The translations under genes were made by a program, and so were the position numbers. Positions 13,868-40,971 of a stretch of 64,000 nucleotides of DNA are shown one piece after another. The DNA is from Crossaster papposus. Its lineage: Eukaryota > Echinodermata > Asteroidea > Velatida > Solasteridae. The DNA lies in NCBI GenBank assembly GCA_037893245.1, contig JBAIAA010000702.1, positions 558,001-622,000 on the forward strand, written 5' to 3'. Under the pieces are notes generated by a model. It searched no databases. It saw only the letters and a list, made by a program, of their open reading frames with translations, and was not told where the DNA came from. How positions within the stretch are numbered: the stretch's first letter is position 1; each line of letters begins with the position of its first letter.

Positions 13868-14131
13868 CTACCTCCAATGCCTTCGACAATGTCCTTTCTG
13901 CCGATGTCACCGGCATCAGAGCTTTGAATAACACTTCCCTCTGATCGATGGTAGTGGGTTGTCGGCGCTGCCATTTGACCAGCATTTCGAAGATCTGGTT
14001 CTGTGTCTGGCCTGGGTCATCCATCCTAATGCGCTCAATCTCTGCAGCAATTAAACCAAGATTCGTGGCCAGCTCACGCCAATCGGAGCCAAGCCTTGTG
14101 GATATCTTGCGTAGAACTAGCTCACTGATAC
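13868..14131 (-). CDS. NLR immune receptor, DEATH-domain exon
   Basis: This 264-nt exon (88 codons, phase 1 at both ends) encodes a complete-looking DEATH fold: ISELVLRKISTRLGSDWREL, then the LGL...IERIRMDDPGQTQNQ helix, FEMLVKWQRRQ and REVLFKALMPV...AERTLSKALEV. The WRELA...I..I pattern and the MLVKWQ helix are hallmarks of DEATH domains, which recruit signalling adaptors by homotypic contacts. The acceptor is TTTTGCAG and two donors overlap at GAG/GTAG/GTATC. Only the second (exon end at 13868) joins in frame to the NACHT exon, giving LSKALEVEITGLQESC. The first would hit a stop soon after the NACHT exon begins. DEATH followed by NACHT is the architecture of many sea-urchin and amphioxus NLRs. 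Confidence 0.9.
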
Positions 14132-14229
14132 CTGCAAAACAGACACAAATTAGCTAACAAGGTAGAGGAAGTGTCAGTAAAAAAACTTCATTTTTGTTAA
14201 ACGCTTGTTTATAAGTGAATTAACCTTTT

Positions 14230-15135
14230 AAAGTTTTCGGAAGTATGAGTCCGATTATTTTCAATCTTGGTCAATAACATCTCTGGACCAAGCCTCAATA
14301 AAGGTGTTCACAGAATTTGGCCAGTGGTCATCTAATGGTCAGTAGGAGTGATTTTCTTCAAAATTACAAATGCCTTTTCTCCGAAAGTCTTGACCCGATC
14401 AATGTCAAACTTGGTCAGTTGCATCCCTGGACCAAGCCTCGTAAATAATTTGGCCAATGGTCACCTAATGGTCAGTGGGGGTCATTTTCTCTGCAATTAC
14501 GAAATGTTTCTTCTCCCACACTTTGGATCCAATTATTGTTGTTTTCATTGATCACCTAATGATCAGTAGGGGCCAGAATTTGGCCAATAGTCACTAGTAA
14601 TTGTCGGTAGAGGTAATTCTTTTTTCAAACTTACAAAATGCTATTTCTTTCACACTTTTAATCAAATTAATTCGGCCAATGGACACATAATGGTCAGTTG
14701 GGTCAGAATTTTGGCAATGGTCACCTAATAGTCAGTGAGGGTAATTTTCTTTAACATTATGAAATATGCTTCTTTTCTCGCAGTCTTTATTCATTTATTT
14801 TTGCAAATGGTCACCTAATGGTCATTTGGGGTCAGAATTTGGCCAATGGTCACCTAATGGTCAGTGGGGGTAATGTTCTTTTAAATTACGAAATCATGAC
14901 TTCTTCCCTCGCAGTCTTGATCCATTTAATTTGACCATTGTTCACCTAATGGTCAGTTGGGGTCAGAATTAGGCCAATGGTCACCTCAGTGACAATAGGG
15001 GTCGTTTTCTTCAAATTCACGAAAAGTTTTTTTTCTCCGACATCTTGGATCCAATTATTGTTGTCAATGATCACCTAATGGCCAGTAGGAGTCAGAATTT
15101 GGCCATTAGTAACCTACATGTATGGTCAGACCACT
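14230..15135. repeat. degenerate tandem repeat, ~130-bp unit
   Basis: GGTCACCTAATGGTCAGT and close variants recur about twelve times, alternating with GGGGTCAGAATTTGGCC and a TTACGAAAT...CTTCTTTTCTCGCAGTC half. The higher-order unit is roughly 130 bp, about seven copies. It lies in the NLR intron upstream of the DEATH exon. Confidence 0.8.
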
Positions 15136-15466
15136 ACCCACATATTGAAAGTCATTTTAGACACCGGAAACAGCTCTGTGTTTGTCCACATTTCTAGTTT
15201 ACTTTGATACTATATTTCTGTTTTCCTGTCTTATCTTTAGATAAGGATGTAGAAAATTCAAGTTTGATTATCCATAATAAAAACAAGCGGACAATTATAT
15301 TCACCGAAATGAAAGATTTTAACCCGGTCAATTTTTTCTTCATAAACGATTTTGGCATTTGTGTTAACGATTATAAAGTTCATTAAGAACGTTAATTCCT
15401 CAGGAAACAAAAACACGAATTCCGGATTTGGGATATATCCCCAAATTGGGCTCCAGCTTATGTGCA

Positions 15467-16246
15467 CTCTACAAACAGATTGGTTAAAAAGACCAACCAA
15501 TCTAATTGGTTGAGCTTGCAACTATAAGGTATCAACCAATCTATTGGTCATTCATAACCAATATGTTAGTTGTCATTCAACCAGTCATATTGGTTGAGCT
15601 TGTAATCAAGGTATTAACCCTTATATTGGTTATGAATAACCAATATATTGGTTGTCCTTCAACTAGTCATATTGGTTGAGCTTGTAACCAAGGTATTAAC
15701 CAATATATTGCCAATAGATTGGTTGGCCTTCAACCAGTCATATTGGTTGAGCTTGTAGGAAATGTACCAACAGCAACTGACCAATCAGAAGTGAGAAAAT
15801 TTATTTGGACAATAGTCGATGTTAAATTGTAGTATTTAGTCCAAAATGAACTTTTTTGACCATAATATGTAATTATTCAAACGATTCCATGATTGAATTG
15901 AGATTTGTGTGCAAACATAGTGAACAATTCACATTACATTTTATTTGTATTCAAACGTTGACATTATTTATAAAAAAAAATAGCTGTGACTTCGTCGTGG
16001 ACAAAAAATGCGAACTATAAAACTAACAACGACAATAGCTAAGTTTGTAGTGTTCAGTAGGTAATATCTAATAGGTTATTATTGTATGTATGCATAATTG
16101 CAATGTGTCAAAGTTAATTGGTTAAATAGGTAACCAATATCATATTGGTTATTTTAACCAATATTTTGGTTATCCACATATCTACCAACTGGATTGGTTG
16201 AAATCGACCAATATATTGGTTATTTTCAACCAATCTGTTTTTTGAG
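15467..16246. mobile_element. MITE rich in AACCAATATATTGGTT palindromes
   Basis: The ends are inverted: CTCTACAAACAGATTGGTT at the left and CTCAAAAAACAGATTGGTT as reverse complement of the right. The unit at 22960 shows the empty site, so the insertion is certain. The flanks share TG to TGTGCA, depending on where the ends are drawn. Inside, ATTGGTT/AACCAAT and CCAATATATTGG recur more than a dozen times near both ends. No coding region. Confidence 0.85.
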
Positions 16247-16723
16247 TGTGCATTAAGTTTAACTTCAAATGGGTAACTTCGGTAGATTCCCGTATATTTT
16301 ATAAATTGGTAGACATAAAAAAGTCGTCTGCTTGTAATAAGTCTAGTTTCGCGGTGTCGCTTGCGTGATGTGAACACATTTTCTGACGGTTAACAGACGC
16401 AAAAGATAAACGACACTCACACTGTACCGGCTGTTGTTGTATCATAGAAAATAGTAGCAAAAAAGTGAATACAAATCACTTTTCCACTCATTGGGGGACA
16501 TTAGATTTGTAGTATGTAAAAGCGTGATACTTCCCCCATGTGACAGTGTTAAAATAAATTATATTGCAATTACTTTTAGATTAGGCCCTATTTTTATGTA
16601 ATTGACCGGACTATGTTGCTTGGCAGCAAACGGCCAACAACAGATAAAAAAGCTCAAGACCTTCTGAATCTGATTGATTCCCTGTATCGGATCAAGATTA
16701 GAAGTACATGTATGCTGACTCAC

Positions 16724-16772
16724 GGTGAGAGGTAGCGAGAATGTCTTCAGCTGCTGGTGGAGATTATCTCTT
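16724..16772 (-). pseudogene. NLR micro-exon '48', copy A (disrupted)
   Basis: Flanked by the same acceptor (ATTTTAG) and donor (GTGAGT) as the intact copies at 23616 and 36311, but 49 nt long instead of 48. The extra T in GAGATTATCTC shifts the frame and brings a TGA within eight codons of the exon start. If spliced in, it would truncate the receptor, so skipping or loss of use is expected. Confidence 0.75.
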
Positions 16773-16964
16773 CTAAAATTACAAAGAAAAAAAGTAATAT
16801 AGATTAGTCTTCAACACAGCCCCTAGGCCCTATCTGCTTTAACAAAACTATTTTTGCTGGCAAGATGAAATAACGATTTCTAAGCAATAGATCTAGAGGA
16901 CCATCATAGTCTCAAAACTATGACCAATTAATCAATTCCCAAAAATGTAAGCTGTATAACTCAC

Positions 16965-17000
16965 CTTGAGCTTCGGGAAGCTCGTCGTCCAGTTTTCTAC
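16965..17000 (-). CDS. NLR micro-exon '36', copy A
   Basis: Acceptor CATTTCAG, donor GTGAGT, 36 nt, phase 1 at both ends. It encodes RKLDDELPEAQ plus split codons at each side. It is an acidic linker before the DEATH domain, with no fold of its own. Identity of boundaries with the other copies supports it as an exon. Expression data would be needed to prove use. Confidence 0.65.
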
Positions 17001-17110
17001 CTGAAATGAAACAATTATTATAAAATTACATGCGATTTCCATCAGGAGCAGCTTTTGATGTTGCTAAGTTGTTTAGATAAAATAGTCTAGCACTATATGT
17101 GCATTAAATA

Positions 17111-19039: not shown

Positions 19040-22000
19040 TTTGGTGCCGAAACCCGAGAGGATTGAATTTTCTTAGGAACTGAGCCACTTATTGTTATGG
19101 TTAGGACAAGCCCAGCACAGTGTCATAAGTCGGGGGGCTTTAGTGGTGCATGATGGCATATCCCTCACCCTACCCGTCCACATTCAATCATCCCTACTAC
19201 GGCCACCTTGACTGCCACCGCCTATGATGCCAGAGTCGAGTCCTTTATCCCAGTTACTGTTACCAAAAACAACACCCCCCGAGCATGTGTATCGGGCTGA
19301 TGAAGAACCCCCAACATTACTGCTTCCTGAACATGTGCCGGAATCCTCTCCCTGTTATCTGCCTTCGTTGCCAAAGACCAGAGTGCCAGTGACGAACATA
19401 CATCATGCCCCTGACATAGGGCAAGTATCATCAAATTCAGCCCTCCGCCACGGTCACCAGAGCCCATTCAACGGCCAACAGGCAGTCAGCCCCCTTCATC
19501 TAGCAGGTTTCGACCCACCCCATCCTGCAACAGGTCGACCTATACCATTCACGTACACCGCTCATCAGGTGAAGGATGTCCCAGCATTCTCTGGATCAAC
19601 TTGTGAGAGACACAGTCTGAAGGTGGAGGACTGGGCGCGTGATATTTCTTACCTTCTCGAAGCCAATTAAGGGACCATAGCCAGACAATGTTCGGTTCCA
19701 TGAAGTGGTACGACACACCAGAGGTAGGGCTCGTGACGTCCTGAATCTTGAAAGGTGAGGTGGAGAGGTAACAGCAGAGGTAGCACTTGCAGAACTTCGT
19801 GAGGAATTTGGTGAGGGGTGCACTGCAACAATACCAATAGCCAAATTCTTCTTCCGAGGAAACAACGACCAGAAGAAAGTGCCACTAAGTTTGCCATTGC
19901 ATTGGAGGCTCTGCTCAGACACACCGATGAAATCCAGCAGCGACAGGGTAGAGAGGCATCCCTTGGTGAAGTCAGAGATATCCTATTAACAACACAATTT
20001 ATGGCGGGCCTTCAAGATGAGTCAGTGAGGCAGCGTCTTGCCCCTATGCAGCCACGACACATGAATTTCAAAACTCTTCGACAGGAACCCTGGGTTATCA
20101 GCGAGGAACTTCAGCAGATGAAGGAGATGAGACGGCAGCACTTTCAGCTACAACAGCAATCTGTGGCTTCAGACCAAACCACCGTGACTTAAAGGGGACA
20201 GGCTGCCACACATAATGAGCCTGACCCCGCCACCCACAGCCACAAGTCCACCAATGACCAGTTAGTGGCGCTGACCACCCTGGTGCAGCAGCAGTTGACG
20301 ACACTGGACCATGTTCTACAGGGACAGTAGTACCTGGGTCATCGGGTACAACAGTTGGAGAACTACGTCGGCCAAAACCAGCCAAACCTTCACAATTTCA
20401 GACAGTCATCTGGCCCACCAATTCACCAATCCGGGATGAGACGAGATGGCCGCTTCTATACATGTGGGGCATCAGGTCACTTCGCCCGAAAGTGCCCCCA
20501 GCCGAATGGACCAACTACCGCCCCACAGATGATGTCCGGTCAGCATTTAAACTAGGAATACCCACTGATGCTGGGCAATCAGGGGGTACAGTATCACGGG
20601 AGAGCCCTAATGAATTTTCGAAAATGACAGGCTTTGATGCAGTACAGCGTGATATACCAGGACGGAAAGTAGAAGAGCAACTTGTTGGGCCGGTGAGCAC
20701 CACAGAAATCATGGTGTCGGTGAGAACGTGCCAGGCGCTGTTAGACACTGGATCTCAGGTGACGACAGTCACAGATGAGCACGTGTCGATGCACCCTGCA
20801 CTCTAACGCGAGGCCTTTCACAAGACAGATGTTCTCATTTATGGAGCTGGTGGCCAGAGTCTATCTCATCGTGGGTACCTCCTACTGGACATCGTCGCCC
20901 TCGGCCACACAGTTCGTAATGTTCCTGCTTTTGTTGTGCCAGTCACAGAGTTCCGTCATTTCACTCCTGTTATCCTGGGTACAAACTTCACCCTGGCCGT
21001 GCGAGATAAACTGCACACAAGACATGGGAGGTCGTTTATGCCAAGAACACGACGGCGATCCATACCATATGGTTTTCAGCTTTCCAGTGTGTAAATGTCG
21101 ACGGAACTGATCTGGCAAACAGACACGGTGAAATGCAGAATGATGTGCAATTGATGTGCAGAAATGATAAGCAGATGGTGCTCAAACCTGGTATAGAGGC
21201 CGATGTCCCAACACGCGGCCCTAGACGGATACAAAGGAGAACCTTCACTGCCCTGGTGGAGCCAAGTGATATAGCTTCCGAGGGACACCTGGCCGTGGGG
21301 ACAACCTTTGCTGAAGTTAAAAGGGGGTAAGTCAATGTCCGGGTATGTAATCTGTCGCAACAGGATGTCATCATCATGCCTAACACCCGTTGGCCACTTT
21401 ATCCGCAGTGCGAGAAGTATGCAGTGTCAGCAGAGGTTAGGATAAGTCACAAGATGGTCCAGGTCCTGCAGCTACATGCAACCAGTCAACTGTAGAGTCC
21501 CAAGGGGTCCCACATAGTTGATGTCAGCTATGAGAGTCTGAATACAGAAAAAGATGGCAAGATCAGACTTTGTGTCGACTACGGTCAATTAAACGCAAAG
21601 ACAGTGAGACGCCTTCCCTTTGCCCCCTATGGAGGATGCTCTTGATGCTCTTGGGAAAGCCAAATACTTTTCAAGTCTCTTTTCCATCTCAGATCTGGGT
21701 ACCTGCAGGTGTCAAAGATCCCCCTTTCTGCTGGAGTGAAAAGTGACAAATACCAATGCAAATGTCCTGTCACAAATCAACAGGAGTGAGATCACATGCA
21801 TCCTTGACACAAATGGAGCAGATAATGAACCTGAAGAGAGGCCACTGCACGGCAAACAACCAAGAGCCAAGCCCACACAAGCAGAGGTACACTTCCATGG
21901 GGCCAGACTCATGCAACAGTACACGGTAGTTCCATTTCAGACGGGGAGTCTTCTACGAGCTCAAGTGACACCCCTACCGGCACAATTAAGCTTCATGCAG

Positions 22001-22746
22001 GGAATCAACCTTCTCGATGCGCAACAAGATGAGTGGGCCATATGCCGAGTGGTACTCCTGAAGAATATGCAGCTGGCAAGGCCAAGTAGAAGGCAGATGG
22101 CACAACAGCCCAGTGTTGTCTGTCGACTACTTTGAAGTTCGGACCGACTGGTGGTGAAGGGTAATTTGCTCTTCTATCGTAAGGATGCCGATGCTGCAGG
22201 CCAACGCTATCTCTTTGTCATGCCAAGGAGGCTACGAAAGCTGTTGCTGGGACATGTTCATGATGCCATGTGACACTTGGGCCTGGACAAGACACTGCAG
22301 CAGGTCAAAAACAGATATTTCTGGCCTGGCCTGTACTCCGAAACACGTGCCTACATCAATAGGTGCAGACGGTGTACACTAAGGAAGACGCCGGGTACTA
22401 AGAGGCAGGTCACACTAGAAAACATCCGCACTACCCGCCCACTCGAGCTGGTGCGTATTGACATCCTCGGTCTCGAGCGATCAAAGGGAGGATATGAGCA
22501 CATCTTGGCGGTTACAGACCATTAACCTGTTACTCCCAAGCATAACCAACCAAAGACGAGAGATCAAAAACTGTGGCCAAAGTCCTTTGGGGAAAGTTTG
22601 TTGTCAACTGCGGTATCCCGGAGTGGTTGCATTCTGATCAGGGGAAGTGTTTTGAATCGGCGGTCTGATCAGGGGGAGTGTTTTGAATCGGCGGTAGTCA
22701 GGGAGCTGTGCACCCTGCTTAGCGTAAAGAAGACCAGGACTACCCC
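19040..22746 (+). mobile_element. Ty3/Gypsy LTR retrotransposon fossil, broken
   Basis: A primer-binding site TGGTGCCGAAACCCGAGA at about 19041 fits the 3' end of tRNA-Phe. In order there follow gag-like sequence (about 19200-20190), a CCHC zinc knuckle (about 20460), an aspartic-protease motif LLDTGSQ (about 20740), a reverse-transcriptase piece with KIRLCVDYGQLNAK (about 21560) and an integrase zinc-binding and core piece (about 22150-22730). The element is broken, with roughly ten or more breaks, and much of pol is absent. No 3' LTR follows; at 22747 it joins NLR-gene DNA. It appears old. Confidence 0.88.
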
Positions 22747-23615
22747 CTAGAAAATCAAGTTTGATCCTTAATATTAAAAACAAGTGGACAGTTATATTCA
22801 CCTACATTTTCAGTAAAAGATTTTAACCCGGCTCGTTTTTTTCTTTATAAACGCTTTTGGCGTATTTTTTAACGATTATAAAGTTTATTAAGAACGTTAA
22901 TTTCTCAGGAAACAAACACACGAATCCCAGATTTTGGATACATCCCTGAATTGGGCTCCAGCTTATGTGCATGGCCACCTAAGTTTAACTTTAAATGGGT
23001 CACTTCGTGCATATCATTGTCAGCCCGTGTTTTATAATTTGAACTATTTATGCCAAAACGTTCCAAAATAAATGGCTTATTTAACATGAGGTGATTTTTT
23101 TTTAACCAACAGCCGAAAATATCCAAATGTCTGACCGTTTTTAAGAAAATACCAAATATTATTGTTAGGCAAGGTAGATTCCCGTATATTTTATAAATTG
23201 GTAGACATAGAAAAGTCATCTGCTTGTAATAAGTCTAGTTTCGCGGTGTCGCTTGCGTGATGTGAACACATTTTCTGATGGCTAACAGACGCAAAAGATA
23301 AACGACATTCCCTCTGTACCGGCTGTTGTTGTATGATAGAAAATAGTAGCGAAAAAGTGAATACAAATCACTTTTCCACTCATTGGGTGACATTAGATTT
23401 GTAGTATGTAAAAGCGTGATACTTCCCCCACCTGACAGTGTTAACATAAATGATATTGCAATTACTTCATCAGGCCCTATTTTGATGTAATTGACCGGAC
23501 TATATGTTGCTTGGCAGCAAACGGCCAACAACAGATAAAAAGGCTCAAGACATTTTGATTCTGATTGATTCCCTTGTCTCGGATCAAGATTAGAAGTACA
23601 TGTATGCTGACTCAC

Positions 23616-23663
23616 GGTGAGAGGTAGCGGGAACGTCTTCAGCTGCTGGTGGAGATATCTCTT
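23616..23663 (-). CDS. NLR micro-exon '48', copy B
   Basis: Acceptor TTTGTAATTTTAG, donor GTGAGT, 48 nt, phase 1 at both ends, open. It encodes EISPPAAEDVPATSH with split codons. Joined after micro-exon 36 it reads PEAQEEISPPAAEDVPATSH; joined before the DEATH exon it gives ATSHRISELVLRK. It is a Pro/Ala/acidic linker. Confidence 0.65.
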
Positions 23664-23855
23664 CTAAAATTACAAAGAAAAAAAGTAATATAGATTAGTC
23701 TTCAACACAGCACCTAGGCCCTATTTGCTTTAACAAAACTATTTTTGCTGGCAAGATGAAATAACGATTTCTAAGCAATAGATCTAGAGGACCATCATAG
23801 TCTCAAAACTATGACCAATTAATCAATTCCCAAAAATTTAAGCTGTAAAACTCAC

Positions 23856-23891
23856 CTTGAGCTTCGGGAAGTTCGTCGTCCAGTTTTCGTT
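23856..23891 (-). CDS. NLR micro-exon '36', copy B
   Basis: Acceptor TTTTATTTCAG, donor GTGAGT, 36 nt, phase 1 at both ends. It encodes RKLDDELPEAQ, the same peptide as copy A despite third-position and flanking changes. Confidence 0.65.
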
Positions 23892-24002
23892 CTGAAATAA
23901 AACAATTATTATGAAATTACATGCGATTTCCATCAGGAGCAGCTTTTGATGTTGCTAAGTGGTTTAGATAAAATAGTCTAGCAGATATGTGCATTAAATG
24001 GC

Positions 24003-25860
24003 AAAAAGATGGCAAGATCAGACTTTGTGTCGACTACGGTCAATTAAACGCAAAGACAGTGAGACGCCTTCCCTTTGCCCCCTATGGAGGATGCTCTTGA
24101 TGCTCTTGGGAAAGCCAAATACTTTTCAAGTCTCTTTTCCATCTCAGATCTGGGTACCTGCAGGTGTCAAAGATCCCCCTTTCTGCTGGAGTGAAAAGTG
24201 ACAAATACCAATGCAAATGTCCTGTCACAAATCAACAGGAGTGAGATCACATGCATCCTTGACACAAATGGAGCAGATAATGAACCTGAAGAGAGGCCAC
24301 TGCACGGCAAACAACCAAGAGCCAAGCCCACACAAGCAGAGGTACACTTCCATGGGGCCAGACTCATGCAACAGTACACGGTAGTTCCATTTCAGACGGG
24401 GAGTCTTCTACGAGCTCAAGTGACACCCCTACCGGCACAATTAAGCTTCATGCAGGGAATCAACCTTCTCGATGCGCAACAAGATGAGTGGGCCATATGC
24501 CGAGTGGTACTCCTGAAGAATATGCAGCTGGCAAGGCCAAGTAGAAGGCAGATGGCACAACAGCCCAGTGTTGTCTGTCGACTACTTTGAAGTTCGGACC
24601 GACTGGTGGTGAAGGGTAATTTGCTCTTCTACCGTAAGGATGCCGATGTTGCAGGCCAACGATATATCTTTGTCATGCCAAGGAGGCTACGAAAGCTGTT
24701 GCTGGGACATGTTCATGATGCTATGTGACACTTGGGCCTGGACAAGACACTGCAGCAGGTCAAAAACAGATATTTCTGGCCTGGCCTGTACTCCGAAACA
24801 CGTGCCTACATCAATAGGTGCAGACGGTGTACACTAAGGAAGACGCCGGGTACTAAGAGACAGGTCACACTAGAAAACATCCGCACTACCCGCCCACTCG
24901 AGCTGGTGTGTATTGACATCCTCGGTCTCGAGCGATCAAAGGGAGGATATGAGCACATCTTGGCGGTTACAGACCATTAACCTGTTACTCCCAAGCATAA
25001 CCAACCAAAGACGAGAGAGCAAAAACTGTGGCCAAAGTCCTTTGGGGAAAGTTTGTTGTCAACTGCGGTATCCCGGAGTGGTTGCATTCTGATCAGGGGA
25101 AGTGTTTTGAATCGGCGGTCTGATCAGGGGAAGTGTTTTGAATCGGCGGTAGTCAGGGAGCTGTGCACCCTGCTTAGCGTAAAGAAGACCAGGACTACCC
25201 CCTAGAAAATCAAGTTTGATCCTTAATATTAAAAACAAGTGGACAGTTATATTCACCTACATTTTCAGTAAAAGATTTTAACCCGGCTTGTTTTTTTCTT
25301 TTTAAACGCTTTTGGCGTATTTTTTAACGATTATAAAGTTTATTAAGAACGTTAATTTCTCAGGAAACAAACACACGAATCCCAGATTTTGGATACATCC
25401 CCGAATTGGGCTCCAGCTTATGTGCATGGCCACCTAAGTTTAACTTTAAATGGGTCACTTCGTGCATATCATTGTCAGCCCGTGTTTTATAATTTGAACT
25501 ATTTATGCCAAAACGTTCCAAAATAAATGGCTTATTTAACATGAGGTGGTGTTTTTTTAACCAACAGCCGAAAATATCCAAATGTCTGACCGTTTTTAAG
25601 AAAATACCAAATATTATTGTTAGGCAAGGTAGATTCCCGTATATTTTATAAATTGGTAGACATAGAAAAGTCATCTGCTTGTAATAAGTCTAGTTTCGCG
25701 GTGTCGCTTGCGTGATGTGAACACATTTTCTGATGGTTAACAGACGCAAAAGATAAACGACACTCCCTCTGTACCGGCAGTTGTTGTATGATAGAAAATA
25801 GTAGCGAAAAAGTGAATACAAATCACTTTTCCACTCATTGGGTGACATTAGATTTGTAGT
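24003..25860. repeat. tandem unit C, left part
   Basis: Near-identical copy of 21548-23405 (Gypsy piece to about 25201, then NLR-gene piece). It stops at TTTGTAGTA, where a ~10.2-kb insertion begins; the rest of the unit resumes at about 36100. Confidence 0.9.
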
Positions 25861-26128
25861 AAAGTATTTGCATCGCTGCTTTGTTCGGACTCCAGAGTCC
25901 ACATTTGATCTTAGGTATGGGCAGAAGGATTCGAGCGTAGAGACTATAGAATCCGAACAGCAGGACCAACCAGTATGGGGAGGGTGGGTGGGATAAATAT
26001 TTTGGATCTTACCTGTCCTCGGAGCGACAAACCAAAGGCTTCTTCGACTTACCGTTCTCTCTCGTAGTGACCAAATTAACAAAGTGAATGTGGATCTTCC
26101 GACCGCTACGTCGCAGCGATGCAAATAG
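25861..26128. mobile_element. 268-bp TIR element, short relative of the large insertion
   Basis: It starts AAGTATTTGCATCGCTGC and ends GCAGCGATGCAAATAGTA. About 80 bp at its left end and 50 bp at its right end match the two ends of the 10-kb element next to it, so it looks like an internal-deletion derivative inserted side by side with it. AGTA occurs at each of the three junctions and once in the empty site of unit B. Confidence 0.8.
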
Positions 26129-28613: not shown

Positions 28614-28742
28614 CAGCCTCACTGGACTGCTGGGCAGAATCTCCGTGTTATTTCGTTTCAAACAATACTCACAATCTCCAATACTTTCCAGATGTCCCTT
28701 CTTCATCGTAACCCCTTCAATTGGTGCGCCAGACGAGGCCAT
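28614..28742 (-). CDS. possible first coding exon, unknown product
   Basis: I do not recognise the product. On the minus strand an ATG in good context (ACAATGG) opens 43 codons, starting MASSGAPIEGVTMKKGHLES and including CEYC, up to an excellent donor (CTG/GTAAGTAA). The exon is 129 nt, phase 0. It lies inside the 10-kb insertion, so it may belong to that element or to cargo. No partner exon was identified to its left. Confidence 0.3.
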
Positions 28743-28799
28743 TGTTTTGAAGAGTACCCAATGATGTGCTTTCACTTCTGATGTGCCAAAGTTCTAAAC

Positions 28800-30120
28800 C
28801 TGACTTGCATCCTTCCTCCGTCCCTCGTAGGCGTGTTGTCACGCGGCCGTCGTCTTGTATGCCGAACGAGGTCAGTGCTTGCTATACAGCACTCTCCCAC
28901 TTCAATGCATCATGGTCCTTCCTGCAAAGTATTCTTATGCAAATCGGGTTAGCTCAGCTACAAATTTAAAATATATCTACTGATGCATGCTAGCCCCAAA
29001 GTATTCAAAATCACGATTTACCTCCTCCTTATGATTGATTAGCCGACAGTGGCCTTGATATTTATCTCCTGATAATGCGCTTTGCCTAACTCATTTTGCG
29101 GCCTGCTTCCTTTATTTACGGTACTCATTCCCCAATTATTATTGTTAGTCCCATTTCCCCGAGAGGTTTTATTATCTCATTGCTATAACCGGGGTTTATC
29201 CCCTCATTTGTTGTTTGCTTTATTTCTTAAACTTCACTGTTATTTGCAAGACAAAACCGTGGACATCAAAATTCATCGATTGGGCCAAGCCCGCCATAGT
29301 GAGTGTCTTGTAGCGTGACGTGGGCATGGCCAAACACTTGCACAGTGCAATTTTAACCTTCGTGTAATTTCATACAAGCAGGTAACTAAAACCTTGAAGT
29401 GCTTAAAGGTTTCCTTTTCTCTTTATTAACAGTAATGGGGGTCGCATTTACAAACGAAAAACCCCAACCATTACTAAAACCAAGTGGGTATAATTTGCCT
29501 ACAAGTGAAATACGTTAACTCAACCCAAGTGCAGAAAATCACGCTAAGGCGAAGAATCCCGCCGGACAGCATAGCGACCAATTGGTCAGACGTCAAAATC
29601 AAGCAATGCGAGTTGTCGACCTCCCGATAATCTGTGGCCACTGAATCGGCCTATCTAGCTTACATTTAAGGGGAATACAGAATACACATAAATAACCCCG
29701 TGCTATTTAAACTGGGGCTGTTGCCCCCATTGTCATGCCTCTGTTTTATTAGGCAATATCTACAACCTACAAGCGTCAAACCTTTTAGATCCAATTTACC
29801 ATAAATACCCGCTTCATTATTCATTTCATCTTTCTTGACTATTTTATGTTGGTATTGCCTCGTTCCTGTTTTGTCTTCTATTGTAACAACCTTGACTTCC
29901 TATTGCTGTCTAAGTAATATTCATAACCCTTTGCTTGACCTTGTTTGTTGCTTTGTTGCTTTATTACATTATTACATTATCCTACTTTCTGCACAAGCAT
30001 ATTGTTCGTTTGTTGCCATTCGTGGCCGAATAACTAATACAACATATAAAACATAACAGATACCTTTACCTGCCTTCTTAATTCACTGGGGCTATTCCCC
30101 TTTTTATAAATACATTATTA
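28800..30120. other. no gene seen
   Basis: Interior of the large insertion. Decayed GGGGCT...CCCC words (for example at 29716 and 30088) announce the minisatellite to the right. No exon supported. Confidence 0.4.
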
Positions 30121-30124
30121 CAAA

Positions 30125-30470
30125 TTGGGCCTTTCCCAACCTCTGCCTTGTGCCTTCGCCAACATCAATATCTGGGGCTCTTCCCCACATCTCTTTCTGG
30201 GCCTTTCCCCATCCCTGCCTGGGGCTTTTCCCCGCATCGATCTCCGGGGCTTTTCCCCACATCGATCTCCGGGGCTTTTCCCCACATCGATCTCCAGGGC
30301 TTTTCCCCACATCGATCTCTGGGGCTTTTCCCCACATCGATCTCTGGGGCTTTTCCCCACATCGATCTCTGGGGCTTTTCCCCGCATTTTTTTTTTTTTT
30401 TTTCTGGGGCCTTTCCCCCACCTTTCTGCCTTGGGCCTTTCCGCACATCAAATTAAATCAAATTAAACTC
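30125..30470. repeat. 25-bp minisatellite, array 1
   Basis: The unit GGGGCTTTTCCCCACATCGA plus TCTCC repeats with a 25-bp period. It contains a self-complementary GGGG/CCCC pair and an ATCGAT palindrome. The unit lacks stop codons on either strand and its length is not a multiple of three, so every frame stays open; the overlapping long frames here are not genes. A T-run interrupts it at about 30388-30402. Confidence 0.9.
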
Positions 30471-31130
30471 TGGGTTTTTGTCTCACATTAATCTCTGGCT
30501 TTTCCCCACATCTATACATCTATACATCTACACATTCTATACATATCTCCCTGGTGCCTTTCCCCACATTAACATCCGAGCCTTTTCCTCACATTAAAAT
30601 CTAGTTTTTTTCCTTACATTTAATTCCTTGCTTTTTCCCATTTCTCTGGGGCCTTTCCCCATCTCAACCTGGGGCCTTTCCCCATCTCAACCTGGGGCCT
30701 TTCCCCCACCTCTCCGCCTGGGGCCTTTCCCCACATCTATTTCTGGGGATTTTTCCCTGCATCGATCTCCGGGGCTTTTCCCCACATCGATCTCTAGGGC
30801 CTCCCCCCACACCCATCAATAGCCTTTCGCCTCAATTTATATCTTTGTATATGGGGCTTTCTATTTCATGCCTATCAACGGTGCTTTTGACCATTCATGT
30901 CTACAAATCAGGTTTTCCACCTGTCAAAAATAAACATCCATGTCTGTTGTTTTTTCCACATTAAACTCTGGGTTTTTTGCCTCACATTAATCTCCGGCTT
31001 TTCCCCACATCTATTTCTGGAGGTTTTCTATACATATCTCCCTGGGGCCTTTCCCCACATTAATATCCGAGGCTTTTTCTCACATTAAAATCTAGGTTTT
31101 TCCTTACATTTAACTATAGGGCTTTTCCCC
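30471..31130. repeat. divergent minisatellite and a ~490-bp direct duplication
   Basis: Words such as CATATCTCCCTGG and TCACATTAAAATCTAG at 30540-30605 recur at 31030-31095, and CTATTTCATGCCTATCAACG at about 30868 recurs at 31408. So about 490-540 bp, including the flanks of the 25-bp arrays, was duplicated in tandem. Confidence 0.7.
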
Positions 31131-31350
31131 ATTTCTCTGGGGCCTTTCCCCACCCCTCAGCCTGGGGCCTTTCCCCACATCTATTTCTGGGCATTTTTCC
31201 CCACATCGATCTCTGGGGATTTTTCCCCGCATCGATCTCCGGGGCTTTTCCCCACATCGATCTCCGGGGCTTTTCCCCACATCGATCTCCGGGGCTTTTC
31301 CCCACATCGATCTCCGGGGCTTTTCCCCACATCGATCTCTAGGGCCTTCC
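31131..31350. repeat. 25-bp minisatellite, array 2
   Basis: Same unit as the first array, about seven copies. Some read GGGGATTTTTCCCC in place of GGGGCTTTTCCCC. Confidence 0.9.
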
Positions 31351-31474
31351 CCCACACCCATCTATAGCCTTTCACCTCAATTTATATATTTGTATATGGG
31401 GCTTTCTATTTCATGCCTATCAACGGTGCTTTTGACCATTCATGTCTACAAATCAGGTTTTCCACCTGTCAAAA

Positions 31475-31476
<2 letters not shown>

Positions 31477-31527
<51 letters not shown>
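31477..31527. repeat. ~51-bp T homopolymer
   Basis: Uninterrupted run of T. It follows CCTGTCAAAAATA, the same words that at 30921 lead into non-T sequence, so the run expanded in one of two duplicated copies. Its exact length in an assembly is unreliable. Confidence 0.85.
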
Positions 31528-31530
<3 letters not shown>

Positions 31531-31539
31531 CTTCACCTC

Positions 31540-32175
31540 ATTTTCATGAATGGGACTTTTCACCTCTTTTCCATGAATGGGGCTTTTCACCTCATTTCTA
31601 TGAATGGGGGTTTTCACCTCATTTCTATGAATGGGGATTTTCACCTCAATTCTATGAATGGGGCTTTTCACCTCCTTTCTATGAATGGGGCTTTTCACCT
31701 GATCTTTATGAATGGGGCTTTTCACCTCATCTCTATGAATGGGGATTTTCACCTCATTTCTATGAATAGGGCTGTTCATCTCATTTCTATGATTGGGGCT
31801 GTTCACCTCATTTCTATGATTGGGGCTTTTTACCTCATTTCTATGAATGGGGCTTCTTAGCTCATTTCTATGATTGGGGATTTTTACCTCATTTCTATGA
31901 ATGGGGCTTTTTACCTCATTTTTTATGAATGGGGCTTTTTACCTCATTTCTATGAATGGGGCTTTTTACCTCATTTCTATGAATGGGGCTTTTTACCTCA
32001 TTTCTTATGAATGGCTTTTCACCCCATTTTTTATGAATGGTTTTTCACCTCATTTGTATGAATGCTTTTCACCTCATTTTGTATGAATGACTTTTCATCT
32101 CATTTTGTATAAACGGGGCGTTTCACTTCATTTTATGAATGGCTTTTTATGTCATTTTGTATAAACGGGGCTTTT
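31540..32175. repeat. ~30-bp minisatellite
   Basis: The unit TTCACCTCATTTCTATGAAT plus GGGGCTT repeats about twenty times with mild drift. Thirty is a multiple of three, giving long in-frame peptides such as HLISMNGAF on one strand; I regard these as artefacts. It shares GGGGCTTTTCACC with the 25-bp family. Confidence 0.88.
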
Positions 32176-35100
32176 CCCTGTCTATACCATGGTTACCTAA
32201 AGCATCCCCCAAAAATCTAAACAGAATTTTGGAGAAACCACAACACTCCGGAAAACACTAAACACCACAAAAGAAGGGGGGAGGGGTTACCTCTGCTCCA
32301 TCTGTTCCATCTCTTGCTTACCATGAAACTTGTTAGAGAAAACAATAAAACCAACCGCAAAACTTGCCAGCCCTCTTATCTATTTTATACCCTAGTCCAA
32401 ACACACATCCCCATGGGGTATGTTACTCCGATCATGCCAAAACACTGCCCTGCCTATGTACACGTGCATTACCTGTACATGTACACATTATGTACCGCAT
32501 ATCTTGGATTAGCAGCAGTATCGCCTAACAGGAGTCAGTTAAAGACATAGGAATTCACAAGATAAGATTCACAGTTAGAAGTTCTTGACATCGGGCTTAA
32601 ATTGAACTACTTCGTCCACACTGACGTACCTAAATTATTTAGGCAAATGCTTATCACCTGTAACCTTTGTTTAGCATTTTGCATCTTGACATGCGCATCT
32701 ACTGCATAATATCAACTGTAAGATTTTTTATTTATTTATCTATTTATTTTCCCAACAGTTTAACTGCAGCAAATTTGTTCGGCTTAAACCGATTCATTCC
32801 AAACATGCCTTAGTTGATAAAAGTATTATGCAGTAATACAATCCTTTATTAGGGTCAACAAAACATTATTTCCGGTTTTGGAAACAAACATACCATGGTG
32901 GCAACTTTCGTTAAGGTAAACTCACGCAACAGTTTGTGCACTAAGGATTAGCAAGGTTTAACAGCCAGAAAATATTCAATCGAAATCGAAATAACTCTTT
33001 GTTTAGGATATGACTCCTGAAGACCTTATTTTAGCCAAAACATTTGTATGCGGGGCCTGTGTTTGTTTCCTCCCACCATTTCACTACTATTTTCCATATC
33101 ATATAGGTACAGCACGTCTACTCTAGCAAAAGATCAAAAACCACTTCCGATTTTGACGCTCAGTGTCCATTGCTGTAATGCTTGCCGTTTATTAGACAGC
33201 AACAATTGTCTACTTTCAGTAATACTCTTCCAAGGAATTGACCACAATGTCATATAAATCGCCAGACTCCGAAATTTGTTGTCTGATATGCACATACAAT
33301 TTGTAAATAGAAAATTGTTCCCAGATACTAGGTTGCAGTCCTTTCACAGACATCACTTTCACATATTTCGTTGTGAGCCAAGCGTTACATTTATCATTAT
33401 CACTTTAAGGGCATTTACCAACTATTTACCAGACACCATTTTCTGGGTAATATTTGCCAACATCGGGGCGCCCAACCCCGCCGAGAGACCACACTTGAGT
33501 CTGACCCTTATCTTCTGTTCATTGTTACACTCTGCCAAGACTATGGTCATCTAGAGCAACCAAATCCTGCAAGTGCAACCACAACTGAAAATTAATATAT
33601 TCTCCTTAGACCTATACAGTTGCCTTTTACTGTACATGTTCCCATCGTACATGCCCACTGTACTTTCCACCAACACCGTTTGGGAACTTCCTCTCACCAA
33701 GATATACTACCTTTGTGTCTAATCCTTGATTAATATCTATATCTTTGCTAAACTTACTCTATACAATATTGTTTAACATCAACGCATGAGGAGGCATGGT
33801 TGTTCCCGGTCCACAAGTGCGAATTTTCTCCAATCTCGCTTGGAATACATTGAGCCACATGCTTCAAAAGAGTGAATACAATTCAACGGATGGAATGTGC
33901 CATTGCAAGGCAGCGCAAATGCGGCCTCTGTCTTCAGTTGAAATATTGAACTTTGATTGCAACCGATAGCCAAACGCATTAATTCACCGTTTCCCAGTCT
34001 ATTTCTTTGGTGAATTTTTTATCATGAACGGAATGTTAAAGTAAATATGCACGTATACTTCATCACCCTCTCATTCCTGTTTGCAGGTTAACACGATACA
34101 ACTTGCCTCATAAGGAACAACGCGTGGTTCTAAACCCATCTCATGCCCTGTGGCTTTGCCGTGGGGCTTCGCCGCCTTGCATATACACACTCCCATAACA
34201 ATCAAGGTCTGACCGCCTGGGCTGTGCCAAACATAAACCAATTTCAGGGACTAACTATAAATACCCTTTCTAGGGGCCTATTATCACTCCTAAACCTTGG
34301 AGACCCAGGGCAAAGCTTTACCCCTCTATCGCTCCAAGGACCTCCTCCATTGTGTTAGTGCCTCTGGTAATGAAGATTCTGCTTCACCAGACCCCTGCCA
34401 TACCAGTCATCACATGTCCTGTACATATGGGATTAAATCAAGAGAAACGTGAAATACATAAACGGTGCTGTGTCTGTTAAATCACAGAGGGATAAATCCA
34501 TCGGTCTAAACCTTGTCCATCCTACCTCTTGCTACCAGCATACACATATTCATGGTGAACTGCCTTTACAGTCACCAGTGATAATATTTTAAATTCAGAA
34601 AAGGTCTGACATATGTCCTTATATAGGACTACAAAGTTTTCCTCTGAGATAAACCACTCATTCTGAAATTAGACAAAGTTTGGAAAAAACAACCCCTCAC
34701 CTGGTAGTCACTTGGCTACCTACGGACTCATTCGCCGCATCTGATATGAAACATCCGCTAATGCCCATGAAGTTCCACTAACATAATTGCATAAGCTGGC
34801 GCTACGGTGGCCTAAGAGCTTGACAATTTCGTATATGCCTTTTCACAGCTATTCTCTGCAAATCTGCCCAAAGGTTTGCCAAATTCATTATTTCGATCAA
34901 CCTATTGGGGATCAAGCTTCCTTTTTATGCACAATTGTCACGAAGATATGAACGTGAATCATATGTTGTAAAGAACAAATCAATAACTGTGAAACAAAGG
35001 AGAACAACCATTTAATCATGTACCCATAACCAGGAAGGGTTTACTAAACCTGCTGGGTTTAACTGCCGTAGGCCTTACTTCCTCAAATCTCAGAATTGTC

Positions 35101-36099
35101 AGGAACGCCGAACATACGTAATAGCCGTACTATACTGTGCCAAAGCTACCACTAATATACTCACGGCGACGCTAAGAATTACAAATAAAATGTACATGTA
35201 CATGCTTTGCATTTTGAAAGCCACCTTACGTCTTCTTCATTTTAGACACCCTTGCATTACTCATAGATTTGGTATACTCTGATAACCGGACCGGCATTTT
35301 CTTTACTAAAGAGTACTACTATAAGAACCATGATAAAACCCGGTCCGACATAGGCCTACTTATAAATAACAAAATTCCCATATCCACATACCTTTGGACA
35401 ATACCCACGCCTTCGTGAAAATTCCGCAGGAATGCGAGGCCATCTTCTTCTCGCAGTGTCGTGTCGTGCATGCTTGAGCGCGTGCTATTATCCAAAGTAC
35501 AATATAGCTTTGTGCAATAGCGTTGTACAATAGCTTTGTACAATACAAAAGACTGCGTACGCCTACCCATGGCCTACCTAATGTACCACGCCCGTCGCGC
35601 TGACCCTGTCAGCCTCAACGTACGTATATACATTGAGGAATTCCTACATGGTATATGTGAAAACACACAAATGGTATTCAAAAAGAACGAATTTTAAACA
35701 AGAACTTGCCCAAATTCTTATTATGACCTTCCGCAGCCGAATAACCATAATCAAATTTCACATTGACAAAATGACATGGCTGCTCCATAAAATTGTACCT
35801 CCTTACCAGTGTCATGTTCGACCACCGGCAAAGATTTAGATATCTCCTACCTTGTTTCCTATTAAACGAACACCAATCCAGGCTCTACCTCCATCGGAAT
35901 CGCAAACCTGCACAATTCCCCACCATTAGGATCGAAGTCCTCCCTTTAGGCACCCGTTATGGCCAGCCGACCTAGTAATTGGCTGGTCAACGGGCCGGGT
36001 ATACATCAGCGGAGGCTACATGTACGTCTTGCTCATATTGATCAAATTCACAAAGTGAATGTGGATCTTCCGACCGCTACGTCGCAGCGATGCAAATAG
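32176..36099. other. right part of the large insertion, no gene recognised
   Basis: Almost 4 kb without a recognisable domain. One weak candidate is a 52-nt minus-strand stretch (35392-35443), MASHSCGIFTKAWVLSK, ending at a good donor (AAAG/GTATGT). Confidence 0.45.
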
Positions 36100-36310
36100 T
36101 ATGTAAAAGCGTGATACTTCCCCCACCTGACAGTGTTAACATAAATGATATTGCAATTACTTCATCAGGCCCTATTTTGATGTAATTGACCGGACTATAT
36201 GTTGCTTGGCAGCAAACGGCCAACAACAGATAAAAAGGCTCAAGACATTTTGATTCTGATTGATTCCCTTGTCTCGGATCAAGATTAGAAGTACATGTAT
36301 GCTGACTCAC

Positions 36311-36358
36311 GGTGAGAGGTAGCGGGAACGTCTTCAGCTGCTGGTGGAGATATCTCTT
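36311..36358 (-). CDS. NLR micro-exon '48', copy C
   Basis: 48 nt, phase 1 at both ends, same splice sites and same peptide (EISPPAAEDVPATSH) as copy B. Intact. Confidence 0.6.
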
Positions 36359-36550
36359 CTAAAATTACAAAGAAAAAAAGTAATATAGATTAGTCTTCAA
36401 CACAGCACCTAGGCCCTATTTGCTTTAACAAAACTATTTTTGCTGGCAAGATGAAATAACGATTTCTAAGCAATAGATCTAGAGGACCATCATAGTCTCA
36501 AAACTATGACCAATTAATCAATTCCCAAAAATTTAAGCTGTATAACTCAC

Positions 36551-36586
36551 CTTGAGCTTCGGGAAGTTCGTCGTCAAGTTTTCGTT
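36551..36586 (-). CDS. NLR micro-exon '36', copy C
   Basis: 36 nt, phase 1 at both ends, acceptor TTTTATTTCAG, donor GTGAGT. Encodes RKLDDELPEAQ; one silent change (CTT for CTG) separates it from copy B. Confidence 0.6.
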
Positions 36587-36699
36587 CTGAAATAAAACAA
36601 TTATTATGAAATTACATGCGATTTCCATCAGGAGCAGCTTTTGATGTTGCTATAAGTGGTTTAGATAAAATAGTCTAGCAGATATGTGCATTAAATGGC

Positions 36700-38725
36700 A
36701 AAAAGATGGCAAGATCAGACTTTGTGTCGACTACGGTCAATTAAACGCAAAGACAGTGAGACGCCTTCCCTTTGCCCCCTATGGAGGATGCTCTTGATGC
36801 TCTTGGGAAAGCCAAATACTTTTCAAGTCTCTTTTCCATCTCAGATCTGGGTACCTGCAGGTGTCAAAGATCCCCCTTTCTGCTGGAGTGAAAAGTGACA
36901 AATACCAATGCAAATGTCCTGTCACAAATCAACAGGAGTGAGATCACATGCATCCTTGACACAAATGGAGCAGATAATGAACCTGAAGAGAGGCCACTGC
37001 ACGGCAAACAACCAAGAGCCAAGCCCACACAAGCAGAGGTACACTTCCATGGGGCCAGACTCATGCAACAGTACACGGTAGTTCCATTTCAGACGGGGAG
37101 TCTTCTACGAGCTCAAGTGACACCCCTACCGGCACAATTAAGCTTCATGCAGGGAATCAACCTTCTCGATGCGCAACAAGATGAGTGGGCCATATGCCGA
37201 GTGGTACTCCTGAAGAATATGCAGCTGGCAAGGCCAAGTAGAAGGCAGATGGCACAACAGCCCAGTGTTGTCTGTCGACTACTTTGAAGTTCGGACCGAC
37301 TGGTGGTGAAGGGTAATTTGCTCTTCTACCGTAAGGATGCCGATGTTGCAGGCCAACGATATCTCTTTGTCATGCCAAGGAGGCTACGAAAGCTGTTGCT
37401 GGGACATGTTCATGATGCTATGTGACACTTGGGCCTGGACAAGACACTGCAGCAGGTCAAAAACAGATATTTCTGGCCTGGCCTGTACTCCGAAACACGT
37501 GCCTACATCAATAGGTGCAGACGGTGTACACTAAGGAAGACGCCGGGTACTAAGAGGCAGGTCACACTAGAAAACATCCGCACTACCCGCCCACTCGAGC
37601 TGGTGTGTATTGACATCCTCGGTCTCGAGCGATCAAAGGGAGGATATGAGCACATCTTGGCGGTTACAGACCATTAACCTGTTACTCCCAAGCATAACCA
37701 ACCAAAGACGAGAGAGCAAAAACTGTGGCCAAAGTCCTTTGGGGAAAGTTTGTTGTCAACTGCGGTATCCCGGAGTGGTTGCATTCTGATCAGGGGAAGT
37801 GTTTTGAATCGGCGGTCTGATCAGGGGAAGTGTTTTGAATCGGCGGTAGTCAGGGAGCTGTGCACCCTGCTTAGCGTAAAGAAGACCAGGACTACCCCCT
37901 AGAAAATCAAGTTTGATCCTTAATATTAAAAACAAGTGGACAGTTATATTCACCTACATTTTCAGTAAAAGATTTTAACCCGGCTCGTTTTTTTCTTTAT
38001 AAACGCTTTTGGCGTATTTTTTAACGATTATAAAGTTTATTAAGAACGTTAATTTCTCAGGAAACAAACACACGAATCCCAGATTTTGGATACATCCCCG
38101 AATTGGGCTCCAGCTTATGTGCATGGCCACCTAAGTTTAACTTTAAATGGGTCACTTCGTGCATATCATTGTCAGCCCGTGTTTTATAATTTGAACTATT
38201 TATGCCAAAACGTTCCAAAATAAATGGCTTATTTAACATGAGGTGATTTTTTTTTTACCAACAGCCGAAAAAATTCAAATGTCTGACCGTTTTTAAGAAA
38301 ATACCAAATATTATTGTTAGGCAAGGTAGATTCCCGTATATTTTATAAATTGGTAGACATAGAAAAGTCATCTGCTTGTAATAAGTCTAGTTTCGCGGTG
38401 TCGCTTGCGTGATGTGAACACATTTTCTGATGGTTAACAGACGCAAAAGATAAACGACACTCCCTCTGTACCGGCTGTTGTTGTATGATATTGATAGAAA
38501 ATAGTAGCGAACAAGTGAATACAAATCACTTTTCAACTCTGGACCTTAGATTTTTAGTATGTCAAAGAGTGATACTTCCCCACGTGACAGTGTTAACATA
38601 AATTATATTGCAATTACTTCTAGGTCAGGACCTATTTTGATGTAATTGACCGGACTATGTTGCTTGGCAGCAAACGGCCAACAACAGATAAAAATACTCA
38701 AGACATTCTGATTCTGATTGAATCA
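36700..38725. repeat. tandem unit D, truncated
   Basis: Third copy of the unit: Gypsy piece to about 37906, then NLR-gene DNA to about 38725. There CTGATTGAATCAACACAGCC shows a deletion that removes the stretch bearing the 48-nt exon. The 36-nt exon is also not found after it. Confidence 0.85.
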
Positions 38726-39144
38726 ACACAGCCCCTATCTGCAATGTAAATAACAGAGCTAATGAACTAAGTGTTGGCATCTTGTAGTACATGTAGTTGC
38801 AATATCAAAACAGGAATAAAACTGAAGAAAAGAAATTACTGAATAAAAAAACCGTTTTGTTCAATGAAAAAACAATCCCACCAGTGGTCTCAGTAACTTG
38901 AACATAAACCCGGCGCGCACTGGTAAAAGGGAAATCTGAAAATCATTAAATGAAGCAGGCCCATTTTGGTCAATAACTGCGTTGTTGCATTGTGAAATTA
39001 TTATGATTCTTACGTCGTGAAAGCGGCCTCCGTACGATGTTTGCTTTATTGTCACCGAGTACAACCTGGTTGCAAAAGGTATAGGTGCATTTTGTACAAT
39101 TGTTTCGACACCCAAGGGCCTCGCTGAACGGTATCGGACTCGGA
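38726..39144. other. no gene seen
   Basis: Spacer within the presumed NLR intron. Nothing recognised. Confidence 0.4.
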
Positions 39145-40325
39145 ATTAGCCTCTGTCATGACCTTTCTAAAAGGTCAACACGCGGAAAATTGTCAAAATG
39201 GCGGCGCTTACCAACAGCAACACGTGTGTCGTCGATGTCAGAACTTTATGGCTTACGACGGAGCTCTAAAGGCTGTGGCTATTTCGAAAGAATAAACCGT
39301 AGGCATAAGGCTGAATGTCACCCAAAACCGTAAAATTACGAAAGAGAAAGAAACAGCGACTGAAAAAATGGTCAGTTTGTGAAAGTGTGCTGCGCTATAT
39401 ACGTACATGTACGTGCGTAGCTAAAGCTGTACTTCGACGTTTACATTGTTTATAAACAGTTAATGTTGGGCCGACTTTCCTTATGCAATGTTCAGTTGCC
39501 AAACTTCTTTATTGACAAAATGCAAATTCATTGTACCTTTACCATGTTAATGTTATTAATGCTTGCTATTTACCCTCTGTTAACAATTGAGGTGTAAAAC
39601 CCAAAACGGTGGCGTCCAGAAATTTGGCACACAATCGACCGAGTGTTCCCTAAGTCGTGGCGCAATTAAATAATTCTCGGAAAATCCAAGTTTAATATTT
39701 ACGAACTTCTTTTAATAGTAAATGTCGTTTATGACCCATGTAAGGTTTCAGTCGATAAAAGGGTAAAATATTACTAGATTTCACAGGCGTCTACATTCAA
39801 TGTGACAGTATTTAAAACTGGTTGGTTTTTAAATTAACGTTGCAGGATCAGGAATGTTGAGGTTTAACGTCCATATAGTAATTATGTGAACAAAGTGCTT
39901 GTGTGTAAAGCCCCAAATTTAGATGTAAAAACAAAATATTAAAAATGCAAAAAGAATATTGCTTGTATCAAGTTGTATGAATTGGCCCCAGTTTATTGTA
40001 TGGCATTCAAATATATGGTATTCAAATAAAGCTTCAGTTCAGTGCCACTGAAAAAAAGAAATTGTTAAAATGTTGGGCCTAACCGCGGTGTTCTAAGGAG
40101 CATAAATACACGGCGGGTCTTTTCAAGTGCAGGAAAGGAAATCTAGTTTTATGATTGGCCATTTTTTATTAAGTATTTCCCCGCAAATCACTAACTATCT
40201 GTTGTCTTTCCTCCATGGTATAGCTAATTACGTTAGTCTTACGCGAGAGCTCGGAAGCCATATTGACAAATTTCCGCAAAACGCCCTCTTCGGTTGATTT
40301 TCGTCATTTCATGACAGAGGCTAAT
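39145..40325. mobile_element. ~1.2-kb TIR element
   Basis: It starts ATTAGCCTCTGTCATGA and ends with the complement. The inverted similarity continues in blocks (CGCGGAAAATTGTCAAAATGG at the left, its counterpart near 40255-40285). No transposase is seen, so it is non-autonomous. Confidence 0.75.
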
Positions 40326-40799
40326 GATACGATGCTATGTTTATTACTCCGATTCGAACCAAGTAGTCACGTACCAGGTCACGTAGGCATGCGTTCTGTG
40401 CAACAAGCGATATTGCCGTTTTCCTAATGTTAGCTTAGGCTCCGGCCCTTCGGGCTCCATCACTAATTGCCGAACTGCATGAACGAAGCCAAACTAGAAA
40501 CGAAGGTTTGGAAAACGGCCCATATAAAAGGTCGGCTTCGTCGCATTGCAATCGTGCGCATCGCGTAATCAACGTAATCAACCGTGGAGGAAGGAATCGT
40601 TTACATAGCGCGTCGATTTCACAGATCAGTCAAGAAAATCCGAAGCGGAAATATTGAGACACATACATACAAAAGACAGAATGCACAGATATATCTATCA
40701 TTTGTTTTTTCTATTCCACTTATCATACATGTACGTGTGAGGCGGCGATATTGGCCAAAAAAAGCATTTAGAAGGCGGTCTCCAAAAAATTGAATGGGC
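40326..40799. other. no gene seen
   Basis: Contains a short GC-rich patch (GGCTCCGGCCCTTCGGGCTCC near 40438). No exon supported. Confidence 0.35.
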
Positions 40800-40847
40800 A
40801 GGGGAAACGCTGGCGGGAATGTCGTCCACTGGCTAAGGTTGTCTCTT
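40800..40847 (-). pseudogene. relic of NLR micro-exon '48'
   Basis: The acceptor (AATTCTAG/AAGAGA) aligns with the intact copies. Later words (GACGACATTCCCGCCAGC) match GAAGACGTTCCCGCTACC only after a one-base shift. The expected GTGAGT donor is absent. It is a decayed exon. Confidence 0.5.
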
Positions 40848-40935
40848 CTAGAATTATGAGATACAGTAAAGCAATTTAGTCTATTTAGTTTATTAAGTTG
40901 CAGAAAAAATTGAAATAAATTGCTGTATAACTTAC

Positions 40936-40971
40936 TTCGAACTTGAGGGCGTTCATCATTCGATTCTTTTC
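40936..40971 (-). CDS. NLR micro-exon '36', diverged copy
   Basis: Exactly 36 nt between TTTATTTCAG and GTAAGT, phase 1 at both ends, open. Encodes KESNDERPQVR against RKLDDELPEAQ in the other copies: length, charge pattern and phase are kept though the bases have diverged widely. It predates the recent tandem units. It may be the ancestral upstream exon and could still be used. Confidence 0.5.

Follow-up and report, generated by a model that had tools for sequence, protein, structure and literature searches.

Tandem exon duplication is a known class of gene change (PMC9013439), in which adjacent copies of frame-neutral exons stand in one gene. Repeated short peptides are also on record in NLR proteins, since zebrafish NLR-B30.2 proteins carry several N-terminal repeats of ~30 residues (PMC4852459), and DEATH-NACHT combinations have been reported in sea urchin, amphioxus and Nematostella (PMC2575513). 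Here we analysed 64 kb of the genome of Crossaster papposus (contig C702, positions 558001-622000; hereafter the window; assembly of 1.02 Gb in 1841 contigs), whose minus strand holds DEATH and NACHT exons and, upstream of them, an array of paired candidate micro-exons of 36 and 48 nucleotides (nt). At least two homologous adjacent exons lie in one gene at this locus, as in tandem exon duplication. The differences are that a pair of micro-exons is repeated here, inside an intronic segment that also bears retroelement sequence, that the array is not the same on what are probably two haplotypes, and that its exons are candidates predicted from sequence. In layout the locus resembles the zebrafish NLR genes, with a short peptide of ~28-30 residues that is present several times ahead of NACHT. 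On the other hand, FISNA and B30.2 were absent among the Pfam matches (E <= 0.1) of the DEATH and NACHT exons, and the peptide comes from two exons and stands before DEATH. DEATH directly precedes NACHT as in the sea urchin, amphioxus and Nematostella genes; unlike in those, no LRR family was found among the 10 Pfam matches (E <= 0.1) of the NACHT exon, further 3′ exons not being sought. The difference between two haplotypes is what stands out against the known relatives. Such a micro-exon array was not named among the titles listed from related literature, sea urchin and other echinoderm NLRs included, which does not establish the array as unpublished. We consider it fairly probable that the locus carries a haplotype-polymorphic, partly decayed tandem exon duplication in the long 5′ intron of a single DEATH-NACHT gene of this echinoderm.

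An earlier sequence-only reading of the window had proposed intact 36/48-nt pairs at 17.0/16.8, 23.9/23.6 and 36.6/36.3 kb. Three 36-nt exons (36551-36586, 23856-23891 and 16965-17000, all on the minus strand, like the other exons given below for the window) and two 48-nt exons (36311-36358 and 23616-23663) were indeed open, with AG/GT flanks and phase 1 at both ends. The remaining partner, at 16.8 kb (16724-16772), is 49 nt long; its phase 1 reads EEIISTSS*, with an in-frame TGA. Two of the three young pairs are therefore intact, and the broken one is nearest DEATH, so that the frame-neutrality claimed for all pairs upstream of one DEATH-NACHT gene holds for the intact exons but not for that pair in the window allele. 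Each intact window pair adds 28 residues, as had been stated, with a net charge of -6 and 4 prolines; from this composition we guess that the tail is disordered. Farther upstream, the proposed diverged pair at 40.97/40.85 kb was half upheld: the old 36-nt exon (40936-40971, phase 1-1) keeps both splice sites, with an acceptor score of 3.8 and a donor score of 4.2, but the relic of its 48-nt partner (40800-40847) retains the acceptor and lacks a GT donor at the homologous place. A candidate start exon of 34 nt (41507-41540) has an ATG, ends in phase 1 and is open and in frame when joined. Since the pairs precede DEATH and only the start exon and the old 36-nt exon come before them, they would lengthen an N-terminal tail, not the linker of varying length that had been suggested.

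The pairs recur because the DNA around them was duplicated. Two tandem copies of a 2.46-kb intronic unit, consisting of pair plus flank, spacer and retroelement fragment, occupy 21548-25861 on the minus strand, with 99.1% identity between 21548-23406 and 24003-25861. Self-comparison showed further unit material with the 36.6/36.3 kb pair at 36097-38721 (minus), where 23402-25861 matches 36097-38559 at 98.8% and 21548-23568 matches 36700-38721 at 97.9%. The 17-kb copy (16281-17109) matches two of the units at 94-95%. With identities of 97.9-99.1% among the units, and 94-95% to the 17-kb copy, the repetition reflects segmental duplication and loses the weight it had been given as independent recurrence, and hence as independent evidence of function. 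The plus-strand retroelement piece in the unit carries an integrase zinc-binding domain (PF17921, E 5.4e-13, in 22274-22522), and a zinc knuckle (PF00098, E 2.9e-5) lies farther along the same element. A piece judged by eye to be reverse transcriptase had no such Pfam match, so that the Ty3/gypsy type is a reading by eye. Similarity to the unit stops at 36097 and is taken up again at 25861, on either side of an insertion of ~10.2 kb (25862-36096), which is younger than the duplication that it splits. The insertion has inverted ends, read by eye as ATTTGCATCGCTGC, and a short element with the same ends adjoins at ~25862-26130; minisatellites of 25- and 27-bp period lie inside the insertion at ~30.1-32.1 kb.

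A genome search with the pair DNA, which ignored very common words, returned 6 matches, 3 in C702 and 3 in a second contig, C787. This contig is collinear with C702, in reverse, over ~60 kb of C702, in blocks of ~80% to 98% identity with insertions between them (blocks of at least 250 bp kept, shorter ones dropped). The RtcB family, a multi-exon gene, gave 5 matches on each of two contigs, plus 2 on the bacterial-looking contig C8, as expected if both haplotypes are retained in the assembly. C787 is thus most likely the other allele of the window locus. Along it lie the candidate start exon (285993), the counterpart of the old 36-nt exon, again with both splice sites (286696), a 48-nt exon without a partner (294033), a pair with a GC donor at its 48-nt exon (307146/307373), an intact pair next to DEATH (317160/317350; its 48-nt exon is the counterpart of the broken 49-nt exon), the DEATH exon (320561) and the NACHT exon (325489-327759). 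The C787 copy of the old 48-nt relic has an in-frame TAA. The exon arrays therefore differ between two contigs that most likely represent the two haplotypes of one animal.

The copies, labelled A in C702 (A17, A23.9 and A36.6) and B in C787 (B307 and B317), were compared with one another. A23.9 and A36.6 differed at 2 of 598 positions and A17 differed from both by 4.4%, while divergence was 4.6-6.5% between A and B copies and 6.5% between B307 and B317. The near-identity of A23.9 and A36.6, set against the A-B divergence, indicates that this duplication in C702 postdates the split of the contigs, unless gene conversion homogenised the copies; support in the copy tree was mixed (52-93). Two other origins were considered and found unsupported. 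A dispersed mobile element does not agree with 6 genome matches that all lie in C702 and C787, in a search that ignored very common words. Derivation from complete tandem genes, in which every pair once had start and DEATH exons of its own, is countered by the start exon, whose two genome matches fall one in each of these contigs, and by the DEATH exon, with a single close match in each of them and 39% identity for the match after those (best 150 of 370 candidates scored).

The domain identities assigned earlier were confirmed, and the join between the two domains proved less simple than had been supposed. The DEATH exon is 260 nt long to its strong donor (13872-14131) and matches PF00531 (E 2.1e-9, profile positions 6-62, 37.8 bits); the NACHT exon (8568-10823) has a phase-1 acceptor, is open to its stop, in C787 as well, and matches PF05729 (E 2.7e-21). 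Splice sites were scored with acceptor and donor matrices. By these, the DEATH donor at 13872 scores 5.8, and joining it to NACHT shifts the frame, which meets a stop once 13 residues of the NACHT exon have been read. The frame to NACHT is kept, as had been claimed for a DEATH end at 13868, by a donor 4 nt farther on, which scores -1.6. The C787 DEATH exon is 255 nt long, ends in LMEIGRKDIVEGIG, matches PF00531 at positions 4-82 (49.2 bits) and joins NACHT in frame; the window exon carries 5 extra nt relative to it. Two window joins using the 49-nt exon stopped after 43 and 99 residues. These results suggest that the window allele is probably a poor source of normal DEATH-NACHT protein. In C787, a join without any pair, one with the 317 pair and one with every copy were tried, and all three stayed open as far as the NACHT stop.

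Whether the micro-exons are exons was examined against chance. The four 36-nt exons scored 2.5-3.8 at the acceptor and 4.2-7.9 at the donor, and the 48/49-nt copies scored well at the acceptor (4.4) but indifferently at the donor (1.9), so that the good splice sites described for both exon sizes were borne out for the shorter one and for only one end of the longer. Open phase-1 candidate exons of 24-60 nt on the minus strand of 8568-42000 (33.4 kb) were then counted and compared with 40 first-order Markov simulations. With an acceptor score of at least 1 and a donor score of at least 3, five candidates were found, four of them 36-nt exons, against a simulated mean of 1.0. With both cut-offs at 0, there were 16 candidates against 9.3 simulated. 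Neighbouring pairs numbered 5, where the simulations had a mean of 0.575 and a maximum of 3, but the observed pairs include mutual duplicates. The 36-nt exon thus exceeds chance expectation. A 54-nt open phase-1 candidate (38882-38935) also passed the stricter cut-offs; it is probably a chance occurrence, because the donor position in C787 reads GGCGGG and not GGTGGG.

One alternative, which we regard as unlikely, is that these are not exons but splice-like sites in an ordinary intronic segment that were copied along with it. The 48-nt donor is mediocre, the young copies stem from duplication, and the exon bodies evolve like introns, as this view would predict. Between A17 and B317, differences were 3/36 in the 36-nt exon, 3/48 in the 48-nt exon and 9/154 in the intron, and between B307 and A23.9 they were 2/36, 3/48 and 10/189; the micro-exon bodies diverge between copies as fast as the introns. 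Against this view, the old and young 36-nt exons keep their length, phase and splice flanks while sharing 17-20 of 36 positions, near the 45-50% background. All 10 old-young comparisons were identical at 23-24 of 25 splice-flank columns (binomial p 8e-6 to 5e-8, post hoc), and the phases are compatible with those of the start, DEATH and NACHT exons. Flank conservation was far lower for the 48-nt exon, with 8 of 11 at the acceptor. The simplest reading of this pattern would be that the 36-nt exon is spliced and its peptide is free to change.

A working array, in which alternative inclusion of varying numbers of pairs gives receptors with longer or shorter N-terminal tails, over a range that depends on the haplotype, appears quite unlikely. 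It would draw on the frame-neutrality of the intact exons, the open joins of C787, the conserved splice flanks of the 36-nt exon and the zebrafish NLR-B30.2 proteins with their several ~30-residue N-terminal repeats (PMC4852459). The frameshift in the window pair nearest DEATH, the GC donor in one C787 pair, the lack of constraint on the exon bodies and the recent, near-identical state of the copies all argue the other way. Equally doubtful, in our judgement, is the wider proposal that a DEATH-NACHT receptor owes its tail length to an array of symmetric micro-exon pairs that changes fast, is specific to the haplotype and keeps its splice signals but not its coding letters, so that the tail varies between alleles and isoforms. 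That the arrays are assembly artefacts, with repeats collapsed or misjoined in one or both contigs, is very improbable. Near-identical tandem units with retroelement sequence do assemble poorly, but the arrays of the two contigs are not the same, their junctions are distinct, substitutions are specific to single copies, and an insertion splits one unit.

We therefore return to a partly decayed tandem exon duplication that differs between haplotypes. An intronic segment with the symmetric 36+48-nt pair was duplicated together with a retroelement fragment, the arrays differ between the two contigs, and some copies have broken, as seen in the 49-nt exon, the GC donor, the missing donor and the missing partner exon. 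The 36-nt exon itself is probably spliced and would code for a short, acidic N-terminal tail in front of DEATH. Frame-neutral exons would make extra copies cheap, so that copy number could drift by unequal recombination, leaving the extra copies as by-products. With arrays differing between likely haplotypes and some copies broken, drift in copy number seems a better description of the locus than a tuned device for splicing; of the two options left by the sequence-only reading, an array feeding the receptor and one drifting, the latter fits better. Several points weigh against this account. The donors of the 48-nt exon (1.9) and of the start exon (1.15) are weak. The window allele can still be read as open: three of six window joins tried ran uninterrupted to the stop of NACHT, each of them using the +4 DEATH donor and skipping the 49-nt exon. 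The 25 flank columns were picked after the alignment had been seen, and the 10 comparisons are not independent. Splicing is deduced from the genomic letters, in which the 1-nt and 5-nt insertions could be assembly errors, and the allelic status of C787 is likewise a deduction, a recent paralogous segment being the other option.

The NACHT exon was also compared between C702 and C787. The ratio of nonsynonymous to synonymous substitution rates (dN/dS) was 0.20-0.34 in each of the first three 150-codon segments and 1.80 and 0.65 in the two that follow, for an overall value of 0.68; the NACHT core looks constrained. For DEATH, the value over the first 71 codons (0.78) alone gives no clear constraint. 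A third copy of the NACHT exon, 94% identical and with a 2-nt insertion relative to the window copy, lies at C45:169926-172201 (locus L041). Among the three near copies, nt ~1350-1950 of the NACHT exon form a high-difference block, with 65/600 A-B differences against 41/1350 before it, mostly amino-acid changes. Codons 450-600 have ~46 nonsynonymous and 7 synonymous differences; positive selection there was considered and not accepted, since at a dN/dS of 1.8 the two rates did not differ significantly (Fisher p 0.15). The third copy does not carry the array in the 20 kb examined: the match comprises the NACHT exon and its 3′ side (~3.2 kb to C787) with short scattered pieces, and nothing upstream.

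More distant relatives were surveyed by a NACHT family search (best 100 of 422 candidates scored, those 100 passing the cut-off). None of the best 150 of 370 DEATH candidates shared a contig with any of the 13 NACHT relatives listed at 74-80% DNA identity. In a DEATH search of 11 loci, among them 7 NACHT loci taken with 1.5-kb flanks, the best match had an E of 0.25. Sharing of the 5′ exons was checked in 10 kb from each of two of these 13 relatives, which is a weak test. The 36- and 48-nt exons had no matches beyond C702 and C787 in the genome search, and no more sensitive search of the relatives was made. Upstream of one related NACHT exon (L043:4400-4760, contig C195) there is an open stretch with a hydrophobic, transmembrane-like segment and no detectable DEATH exon. 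Elsewhere, DEATH-like matches at C164:3494386-3496975 and C428:207140-210125 are spaced at multiples of ~400 bp and mirrored between the contigs; they are perhaps tandem DEATH-exon arrays on two haplotypes. Contig C8, of at least 5.2 Mb, has long open RtcB and COX1 matches and probably represents a bacterial chromosome that was assembled along with the rest. On C1841, the cox1 gene agrees with NCBI table 9, which covers echinoderms, with AAA at an Asn expected from the cox1 motif FSTNHKDIG, ATA at an expected Ile and AGA as Ser.

The locus would thus offer a tandem exon duplication caught in progress, on two likely haplotypes of an immune-receptor gene, with copies ranging from intact to dead. 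It also indicates that a repeated in-phase exon array on one contig can stem from recent segmental duplication, for which the other haplotype is a quick check. If transcripts use several pairs, this gene would become a model for allele-specific tail length in NLR-like receptors.

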